NCBI GenBank assembly: GCA_030600555.1 | Contig: JAUVLW010000006.1 | Span: 1 to 46,620 of the forward strand | Direction of reading: 5' to 3' | Source: Candidatus Aenigmatarchaeota archaeon | Lineage (GTDB): Archaea; Aenigmatarchaeota; Aenigmatarchaeia; QMZS01 | DNA length: 46,620 nt | In this document: positions 3,230 through 37,986 of the stretch, piece after piece | Layout of the letters: every line of letters starts with the position of its first letter | How positions within the stretch are numbered: position 1 is the stretch's first letter | Position numbers and translations under genes: made by a program | The notes under the pieces: model-generated | Databases searched by the model: none | The model's input: only the letters and a program-made list of their open reading frames with translations | Told to the model about the DNA's origin: nothing

Positions 3230-3679
3230 TTAATTAATGAAATGATATTCATCCGCAAGGCAAGGAGACCCATAATAGACCCCATTTTTAGATTTCATTT
3301 TTAGATGAATTAAAGAGCCGCCAATTATTATAGCCAGAAGAGACAATGTAAGGGATAGCATAAACCACATTATTGAAATTTCTCCTAGCATTAAAGCCAT
3401 AAACCCACTCAGGAGAATAAAGCCCCCTGACGCAAATATACTCATTTTAATAAGATTTTTTATTATTGTATTTGAATATTCAATTCCCGTGTTTATTTTT
3501 ACATGCCTTCCGCAGTGAGGGCAGGTTACTGTAATAGATTCGCCGGGTTTTCCTTTATCCGGCACTGAAGCCTCAAAAGCTTTGTATGTGTTTGTTTTAC
3601 TTTTGATAAGAATAATGTCCAAGTTTCGTTCTTTTGTTGAGGTAATACTCTTCTTGCACCCTATTTTTATTATTGTCAT
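3230..3679 (-). CDS. Two-TM protein with CPHCG zinc-ribbon motif, paralogue A
   Basis: 149-aa ORF, strongly similar to 3826..4284 (shared KAFEASVPDKGKPGESITVTCPHCGRHVKINTG). Confidence 0.75.
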   Translation of the reverse strand: MTIIKIGCKKSITSTKERNLDIILIKSKTNTYKAFEASVPDKGKPGESITVTCPHCGRHVKINTGIEYSNTIIKNLIKMSIFASGGFILLSGFMALMLGEISIMWFMLSLTLSLLAIIIGGSLIHLKMKSKNGVYYGSPCLADEYHFIN

Positions 3680-3830
3680 AATATAGCCTTATTTTTGTTA
3701 AATGGAATCGGGGAGATTTTCACTCGCACTCTTTTTGCTTCACAAAAGTAGGAAAGGTTCCTGTGAAGGTAGCATTATACCACTAGACTACGAGCCCATA
3801 ATTTTTAGAATACTAATTTAATTTATTAAT
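3234..3830. repeat. Tandem segmental duplication, unit 1 (gene + decayed tRNA)
   Basis: Starts ttaatgaaatgatattcatcc, ends ..gagcccataatttttagaatactaatttaatttattaat; parallels 3833..4605. Confidence 0.8.
3703..3797 (-). pseudogene. Truncated tRNA-Val copy
   Basis: Minus strand GGGCTCGTAGTCTAGTGGTATAATGCTACCTTCACAGGAACC joined to ..GTGAAAATCTCCCCGATTCCA; lacks the 3' anticodon stem, variable loop and 5' T-stem present in 4308..4572; acceptor mismatched. Confidence 0.85.
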
Positions 3831-4284
3831 AATTGATGAAATGATATTCATCCACAATATTAGGAGCTCCATAATAAACCCCATTTTTAGATCTTATTTT
3901 TAGATGAAGTAGGTAGAAACCGCCACCTATGGCTAAAATAGGTAATATGAATATCATCATAAGCCACATCATTCTAATATCTTCCATAATCAAACCCATA
4001 AAACCTGATAGGAGAATGATAGTCATTGATACAAATACCCCCATTTTAAGAGAATTTTTTATTAGCACATTTGAATATTCAACACCTGTGTTTATTTTTA
4101 CATGCCTTCCGCAGTGAGGACAGGTTACTGTAATAGATTCGCCGGGTTTTCCTTTATCCGGCACTGAAGCCTCAAAAGCTTTGTAGGTATTCGTTGTTGT
4201 TCCGCCTCTGACGAGAATTAGGTCTAAGTTTCGCTCCTTTGTTGAGGTAATACTATTCCTGCACCCTATTTTTATTATTGTCAT
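3826..4284 (-). CDS. Two-TM protein with CPHCG zinc-ribbon motif, paralogue B
   Basis: 152-aa ORF, paralogue of 3230..3679. Confidence 0.75.
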   Translation of the reverse strand: MTIIKIGCRNSITSTKERNLDLILVRGGTTTNTYKAFEASVPDKGKPGESITVTCPHCGRHVKINTGVEYSNVLIKNSLKMGVFVSMTIILLSGFMGLIMEDIRMMWLMMIFILPILAIGGGFYLLHLKIRSKNGVYYGAPNIVDEYHFINY

Positions 4285-4321
4285 AATATGGCTTTATTTT
4301 TGTTAAATGGGCTCGGGGAGA

Positions 4322-4475
4322 TTTTCATTTGCACTCCTTTTTAGGTCTTGGTTTTTTAAATGTTGTTTTTAATCAATACCTCTTTTTGGGGTGCAGACCT
4401 CTTTCTTTTTGCTTCACAAAAAGATGCATCATCCAAAGGATGAATGTTTTAGCCAATTTAGCTGAAAAGGCTGAC
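4322..4475 (-). other. tRNA-Val T-loop intron (~154 nt)
   Basis: Splits the T-loop; GGGAG/CTCCC outer helix, TTCA/TGAA 4-bp central helix, 3-nt bulges ATG and AAT, i.e. BHB-like. Exact boundary ambiguous by 1-2 nt. Confidence 0.75.
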
Positions 4476-4497
4476 ATTGAACTCCCGACCTCTGCCC

Positions 4498-4536
4498 TTT
4501 TCCGAGTCACCTAATTATCTTTCTTTTGGTGGTTCC
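4498..4536 (-). other. tRNA-Val anticodon-loop intron (39 nt, position 37/38)
   Basis: GGAACCACC...GGTGACTCGGAAAA between A37 and G38; internal CACC/GGTG stem; relaxed BHB. Confidence 0.8.
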
Positions 4537-4618
4537 TGTGAAGGCAGCATCATACCACTAGACTACGAGCCCATAATCTTTAGAATACTAATTTAATTTA
4601 TTAATTTAAAAGTATATT

Positions 4619-36950: not shown

Positions 36951-37047
36951 GTATAGTGATTTGTATAAATTTATTTGATTAAAATGTTTTTCCCAATAAT
37001 TTAAATTATATTCTGGAAAAAATTTAAATGGACCCACTGGGAGTCGA

Positions 37048-37060
37048 TACCGGAAGTATT
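37048..37060 (-). other. 13-nt insertion in tRNA-Ala T-loop
   Basis: T-loop reads T[AATACTTCCGGTA]TCGACT; removal restores TTCGACT; insertion can form ATAC/GTAT hairpin. Confidence 0.75.
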
Positions 37061-37077
37061 ACCCAGCGTCTCTGCCA

Positions 37078-37132
37078 TTTTCAAATTCTCCTTTCTTTTC
37101 CTTGAGGTTTTCTTTTGAGAAAGAAAAGCTCC
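37078..37132 (-). other. tRNA-Ala anticodon-loop intron (55 nt, position 37/38)
   Basis: GGAGCTTTTC...TTTGAAAA between A37 and U38; TTCG/TGAA 4-bp helix (one GU) and 3-nt bulges, BHB-like. Confidence 0.82.
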
Positions 37133-37209
37133 TGCGAAGGCAGCATGTTACCAAATACACTATGGGCCCATAAATTTTATTATTAATTAAATTAATCACT
37201 CAGTTAATT

Positions 37210-37986
37210 ATGGATAATCTTGATTATATAAAGAAGGAGATAGAAAAGACCCAAGTAATTATAATTGCGGGGGGAAGAGCAACGAGAATGGGTAGAATAG
37301 ACAAACCCAAGGCTTTACTTGAACTAAACGGCAAATGTCTTATAGATTACACTTTAGAATTTTTAAAAAATTCAGGATTTAAAAACTTTGTTTTTTTGTT
37401 AGGATACAAACATGATGAAATTGAAGCTTATATTGGGGATGGTTCAAAATATGGAATAAATACAACTTATTCAGTGGAACCTGAAACAATGAAAGGTCGC
37501 GGAAAAGCATTAAAATACGCTTTAATGAACAATAAGATTGACAGGAATAAAAGAGCAATTGTTTGTTACCCTGATGATTTATATCTTGATAGGAACTTGC
37601 CAATAAAATTACTCCTGCATCATTTGCACGGAACTGAAAACAGGGACATTCTTGTAACCGCATTATTTACTTCAGGCACAGAATATCCTTATGGGGTTGG
37701 GAAAATAGATTCGGAGCAATTTGTCACTGAATTTGTTGAAAAACCTTTCATACAAAAATATACAAATACTGCATTTTATGTGATTGAACCCGGAGTTTAT
37801 TCGGAAATAGAAGAGAAAATTGATTTGGATTCTGAAGAAAGTCCTGAATTTGAACAGGCGGTTTTGCCTGATTTGGCAAATAACCGAAAAGTGACCTCAA
37901 TGATTATTCCTTCTTCAGTGTGGGTTCCAATAAACACGAGCAAAGAACATTCAACGGCGGAGAAATTTTTAAATTCAAAGAAATAA
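37210..37986 (+). CDS. NDP-sugar nucleotidyltransferase
   Basis: VIIIAGGRATRMGRIDKPKALLELNGKCLIDYTLEFLKNSG. Confidence 0.88.
   Translation: MDNLDYIKKEIEKTQVIIIAGGRATRMGRIDKPKALLELNGKCLIDYTLEFLKNSGFKNFVFLLGYKHDEIEAYIGDGSKYGINTTYSVEPETMKGRGKALKYALMNNKIDRNKRAIVCYPDDLYLDRNLPIKLLLHHLHGTENRDILVTALFTSGTEYPYGVGKIDSEQFVTEFVEKPFIQKYTNTAFYVIEPGVYSEIEEKIDLDSEESPEFEQAVLPDLANNRKVTSMIIPSSVWVPINTSKEHSTAEKFLNSKK

Follow-up and report, generated by a model that had tools for sequence, protein, structure and literature searches.

The question raised by this locus is whether a short insertion in the T-loop of a tRNA gene stays in the mature molecule or is removed from it as an intron. The window, a stretch of 46,620 nucleotides from a Candidatus Aenigmatarchaeota archaeon (source genome of 815 kb, 82% complete, called G000 here), contains a complete tRNA-Ala(CGC) gene on its minus strand, running from 37169 to 37029. 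A previous interpretation made from the letters alone (the sequence-only reading) had the coordinates and the sequence right, and our parse of the gene bears out the complete cloverleaf, the G3:U70 pair, the 55-nt intron at 37/38 and the 13-nt T-loop insertion that it described. Exon 1 (positions 1-37, GGGCCC...TTCGCA) occupies 37133-37169, the canonical 55-nt intron at site 37/38 occupies 37078-37132, exon 2 (positions 38-54) 37061-37077, the putative T-loop intron, 13 nt at site 54/55, 37048-37060, and exon 3 (positions 55-73, TCGACT CCCAG TGGGTCC A) 37029-37047, all on the minus strand. The acceptor stem is GGGCCCA/TGGGTCC, which includes G3:U70, with A as discriminator; the D-arm reads GTGT-ATTTGGTA-ACAT, the anticodon stem CTGCC/GGCAG, with the 55 nt inserted between TTCGCA and T of its loop, and the T-stem CTGGG/CCCAG, with a T-loop of T, the insert AATACTTCCGGTA directly 3' of T54, and TCGACT. 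The 55-nt intron forms a bulge-helix-bulge (BHB) in which TTCG (32-35) pairs with TGAA and the bulges are CA^G and AA^T; in G001/G006, CGAA/CGGA maintain this pairing. Introns homologous to the 55-nt one sit in Glu(CTC), Leu(CAA), Arg(TCG) and Ala(GGC). The 13-nt insert is very probably a 54/55 intron of a functional, single-copy tRNA-Ala(CGC), which would be removed by way of a helix between positions 49-52 and its own CCGG, by EndA and RtcB.

Neither ARAGORN nor Rfam detected the gene at default settings. With an intron-tolerant parser it scored 26.4, versus a maximum of 22.5 in three shuffled versions of the 46.6-kb window (140 kb), and it has orthologs in same-genus genomes, with whole-gene identities of 96, 81 and 73%; we therefore regard the gene as real. 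Decay into a pseudogene, or an error of assembly, is an extremely unlikely account of it: the window does hold one decayed tRNA copy (Val, 3703-3797), but here the stems and G3:U70 are intact, the insert is conserved in eight separately assembled genomes, its pairing described below is maintained despite divergent sequences, and this is the sole Ala(CGC) gene, no second one having been found among the 23 tRNAs recovered from the genome.

In all same-genus orthologs that were parsed, those of seven relatives (G001-G006 and G008), 11-14 nt are present at the same T-loop site. Directly after T54, G004 carries the same 13 nt as G000, G001 and G006 carry the 13-nt inserts AATAATTCCGGTA and AATAATTCTGGTA, G002 and G003 the 11-nt insert AATTTCTGGAA, and G005 and G008 the 14-nt insert AATCTTTTCCAGAG. 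The ortholog of G010, from a sister genus of the same family (L099), has an insert-free T-arm, CTGGG TTCAATT CCCAG. Since lengths and sequences differ between orthologs and the T-loop of G010 is intact, the insert appears to have arisen within the genus (the alternative being loss outside it); by this comparison its length and sequence can vary freely, and an ortholog can do without it. According to the sequence-only reading, insert-free relatives together with an intact Ala(CGC) copy elsewhere would have pointed to a pseudogene or assembly error; the sister genus indeed lacks the insert, as is expected of a gained intron, but every parsed same-genus ortholog has it and no other copy was found. 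The Ala(CGC) genes of G002/G003 and G005/G008 (L026, L032) have no anticodon intron and carry a D-loop insertion of 14-16 nt instead.

The same comparison bears on the other half of the choice that the sequence-only reading had left, a minimal atypical intron or a retained expansion of the T-arm. If the 13 nt (AAUACUUCCGGUA between T54 and T55) stayed in the mature tRNA, the T-loop would be enlarged and carry a hairpin. The insert is short, a cloverleaf whose T-stem is closed has the lower folding energy, and an AUAC/GUAU mini-hairpin can form in the source genome. This ATAC/GTAT hairpin, already pointed out from the sequence, is complete in G000 and G004 but was not kept in G001, G006, G002 or G005, and was rejected as a functional element; the pairing that is conserved is that of 49-52 with the intron. 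When the T-loop is folded for docking with the D-loop, T54 and T55 are neighbours, and a retained insert would split them apart. Further, G010 does without the insert, 34-164 nt are inserted at the same T-loop position of other tRNAs, and the inserts follow a splice-like pairing rule. On these sequence comparisons the intron reading is strongly favoured, and retention appears very improbable.

In standard archaeal BHB introns, the helix joins the 3' portion of the intron to a run of four 5'-exon bases ending two nucleotides before the cut. Inserts of the 53/54 and 54/55 class were read with the T-loop consensus as guide; members at 54/55 are Phe, Met, two Gly, Asp, Ala(CGC) and the Ala(TGC) of G009, and members at 53/54 are Ile(TAT), Arg, Gly, Asp and Lys in relatives. 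Over 12 insertions in different tRNA genes, exon positions 49-52 (54/55) or 48-51 (53/54) form 44 of 48 possible pairs with intron positions -6 to -3, a count in which 5 of the 12 are mildly biased because 53/54 registers were picked with pairing in view, and which leaves out G009 Glu and G007 Thr (2 of 4 pairs each), whose parse is doubtful. Shifted registers gave 12-24 of 48 over the same insertions, and 44 was never reached when intron ends were swapped between tRNAs or the inserts were composition-shuffled (20,000 trials each, p<=5e-5). As a yardstick, the anticodon introns of the same genomes, which are of a recognised kind, obey the rule too and have NN^N cuts; 30 of 53 form the complete set of four pairs. 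The predicted cuts of the class are GT^N (or NG^T) and NA^T (AG^T in G005/G008), NN^N as in BHB introns. In Ala(CGC), CTGG of the exon does not change between species, whereas its partner in the intron is CCGG, CTGG or CCAG, and the two always pair; the D-loop mini-introns of G002, G003, G005 and G008 follow the same rule (AGTG with CACT or TACT). The proposed splicing mechanism is, on the basis of the comparative pairing, well supported.

The Ala(CGC) T-loop intron is laid out as A-ATACTT-CCGG-TA, with CTGG paired to CCGG and predicted cuts at GT^A and TA^T, the 5' site sitting in a loop. Excision there would restore the T-loop TTCGACT, and with it the near-universal T54-T55-C56-R57-A58. A strict BHB (hBHBh') has helices on both sides and two bulges of 3 nt, and this intron is not one: it has a 6-nt loop, no inner helix, and an outer helix (GAGACG with CGACTC) that is only possible; the sequence-only reading was right on this point. 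No general outer helix was found in the 54/55 class. A BHB of reverse geometry, with the 5' part of the intron paired to the 3' exon, was tried by eye and did not fit. The 4-bp central helix, the predicted bulge cuts and the EndA and RtcB genes, all features of the BHB family, are present, and since the inner helix is lacking, the intron is best read as a relaxed bulge-helix-loop type.

From the sequence, its conservation, the pairing rule, the pattern of presence and absence and the occurrence of one EndA gene plus RtcB, we infer the cleavage, the order of events and the enzyme. In the precursor, the 5' T-stem strand CUGG (49-52) would pair with CCGG of the intron in place of the 3' T-stem strand. 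The resulting helix of 4 bp would present two sites for cutting to the splicing endonuclease EndA, GU^A within a loop and UA^U within a bulge of 3 nt, and RtcB would ligate the exons into the standard T-arm CUGGG-UUCGACU-CCCAG, with GGGT joined to TCGACTCCC (in DNA letters). The closed-T-stem cloverleaf has a folding energy of -28.9 kcal/mol (minimum free energy -30.8) versus -24.1 kcal/mol for the splice-competent form, and this advantage of about 5 kcal/mol means that the latter has to be promoted, by folding during transcription or by the enzyme: the intron strand, transcribed ahead of the 3' T-stem strand, may pair first, or the enzyme may stabilise the splice-competent form. The unfavourable energy, together with the fixed site, the absent outer helix and the tRNA-Asp member of the class, which forms just 2 of 4 pairs, would also suit an intron recognised otherwise, through distance measured from the tRNA body, as eukaryotic TSEN does, or through another helix, the 49-52 pairing being incidental. 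Given the 44 of 48 pairs and the sharp register peak, we consider such recognition very doubtful.

The putative T-loop intron of tRNA-Ala(CGC) is one of many. Because the Rfam tRNA model gave 19 matches genome-wide, mostly weak, a genus-specific covariance model and a hand-written intron-tolerant parser were used, and the resulting list is incomplete; ARAGORN with introns allowed and relaxed score settings returned only noise. T-loop inserts of 13-154 nt were found in 22 of the 23 tRNAs recovered from the source genome, the exception being Arg(CCT). Detection bias is not the cause, as an insert-free tRNA would be the easiest to find. The survey of the genome and its relatives that the sequence-only reading had proposed thus upholds its suggestion of a lineage trait, the Ala(CGC) insert being present in seven same-genus relatives, with presence or absence of T-loop inserts differing among relatives for Ile, Phe, Gly(GCC), Val(TAC) and Glu. 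Inserts at 59/60 account for 16 of the 22, and in this class TTCR of the T-loop (54-57) pairs with YGAA or similar in the intron; across all genomes, 34 of 47 cases form every one of the four pairs. The strands covary, TTCA occurring mostly with TGAA and TTCG with CGAA; the commonest 3' bulge is AAT. These introns show the pattern of central helix and bulges, and inner helices could be seen by eye in several. In total, the 23 genes hold 39 putative introns, including eight insertions in anticodon loops and nine large ones in D-loops; the latter (e.g., L019, L073, L068) lengthen the loop to 40-108 nt. The anticodon introns of Ala(CGC) and Glu(CTC) match T-loop introns of Leu(CAA), Leu(AAG) and Arg(TCG) at 77-98%, and homology across positions and tRNAs indicates that introns have moved between positions. 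Outside the family, none of 15 sampled tRNAs of G014 and G030 had an insert, a biased comparison since these were the best-scoring matches. In the single-contig genome G031, from a different family of the class, 59/60-type T-loop introns were seen in 4 of 8 sampled tRNAs.

A single EndA gene is detectable in the source genome (L020, 928-1800), in seven of eight same-genus relatives, in G009 and in G010, and none was found in the eighth relative. An RtcB gene is present in the source genome. The EndA of the source genome has 290 aa, about 180 of them forming the core; it is a catalytic subunit of the alpha type, closest by sequence to those of Methanocaldococcus jannaschii and Nanoarchaeum equitans (alpha). 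Neither a second subunit nor a fused three-unit protein was detected in the source genome (82% complete) or the same-genus relatives; a second subunit may be very divergent or unsequenced. The N-terminal core aligns to M. jannaschii without insertion, and none is evident at the place expected for a CSL or ASL, a place worked out from the residue numbering of PMC12397907 and PMC6379350; this apparent lack counts against the intron reading. The catalytic Tyr-His loop is 6 aa longer than in M. jannaschii (KLKRGP) and has the same spacing as in N. equitans alpha. As this long loop is common to all twenty EndAs of the Aenigmatarchaeota class that were aligned, it does not by itself explain the genus; an origin together with the T-loop introns was rejected, the loop also being found in G014 and G030, whose few sampled tRNAs had intact T-loops. 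A Lys-rich N-terminal tail has more than 100 residues in G000, G001, G004, G006 and G007 and 20-56 in G002, G003 and G005; longer tails loosely track a higher T-loop intron load, in few genomes.

Broad-specificity EndAs are (alpha-beta)2 enzymes with a CSL or epsilon2 enzymes with an ASL, and these loops have been linked to cleavage of relaxed motifs. Introns at noncanonical sites are reported to be efficiently removed only by these two types, and the N. equitans EndA is a broad-specificity enzyme (PMC6379350). It is conceivable, though we lean slightly against it, that in this genus nearly all tRNAs lose their relaxed T-loop introns, even those of 11-14 nt, to an alpha-type EndA of one subunit that has neither CSL nor ASL and achieves broad specificity by another device, which would be the Lys-rich Tyr-His loop, the Lys-rich N-terminal tail or both. 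One such enzyme handling dozens of relaxed introns would break the rule that reserves them for (alpha-beta)2 and epsilon2 EndAs.

Noncanonical archaeal tRNA introns are a known kind, to which this case belongs. In Thermoproteales they lie at 53/54, 56/57, 59/60 and elsewhere, measure 11-129 nt and occur several to a gene (PMC4090602, PMC4033280), and their transposition is documented on the account given in these papers, with Fujishima et al. 2010 as cited there. The introns described here share with them BHB or relaxed sites, multiple introns per tRNA, the sites 53/54 and 59/60, lengths from 11 nt and similar introns at different positions of different tRNAs. The lineage, the T-loop intron in 22 of 23 tRNAs and the alpha-type EndA, versus (alpha-beta)2 in crenarchaea, are different, and 54/55 is absent from the positions listed for Thermoproteales, a list ending in 'etc.' (PMC4090602, PMC4033280). 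ARMAN (Micrarchaeota), in which an epsilon2 EndA cuts relaxed tRNA introns (PMC12397907), are likewise ultra-small archaea with bulge-helix-loop introns at varied positions and a lengthened EndA Tyr-His loop, whereas here there is one alpha-type EndA, with no fused three-unit protein and no evident ASL. T-arm mini-introns, of 3-24 nt, are known from the Guillardia theta nucleomorph, where removal was demonstrated by RT-PCR; that system is eukaryotic, and its splicing route is unexplained according to the same source (PMC4090602). In a literature search with most subscription journals outside its reach, no account of T-loop introns turned up for Aenigmarchaeota/Aenigmatarchaeota or DPANN. New, on the sequence comparisons made here, are the lineage, the extreme T-loop load, site 54/55 and a single detectable alpha-type EndA without evident CSL or ASL.

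If our reading is right, the 39 putative introns in the 23 recoverable tRNA genes of the source genome come to about 1.7 per gene; the highest load among complete genomes assessed was 71 in 46, about 1.5 per gene (PMC8450103). Default ARAGORN and Rfam would miss nearly all of its tRNAs, and estimates of MAG completeness or codon reading based on tRNA counts would be wrong. Gain, loss and movement of introns could be read from close relatives, in which species differ in tRNA, intron and site, and the EndA would depart, in a testable way, from the accepted association of intron type with EndA type.

The statement that both tRNAs of the window have T-loop insertions also holds, with an addition. 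The tRNA-Val(CAC) at 4309-4572 (minus strand) has a 39-nt intron at 37/38 and 154 nt at 59/60, a different class (BHB), and a third tRNA, a decayed duplicate of it, lies at 3703-3797 on the same strand without the 3' half of the anticodon arm and the 5' half of the T-arm. Paralogous ORFs (3230-3679 and 3826-4284) adjoin the two copies, one each, and the pairs of Val(CAC) and ORF are, as their arrangement suggests, a tandem duplication in which one tRNA copy lacks its middle. The protein encoded at 37210-37986 has 91-93% identity to loci in several Candidatus Aenigmatarchaeota MAGs, one of them from a Guaymas-named sample.
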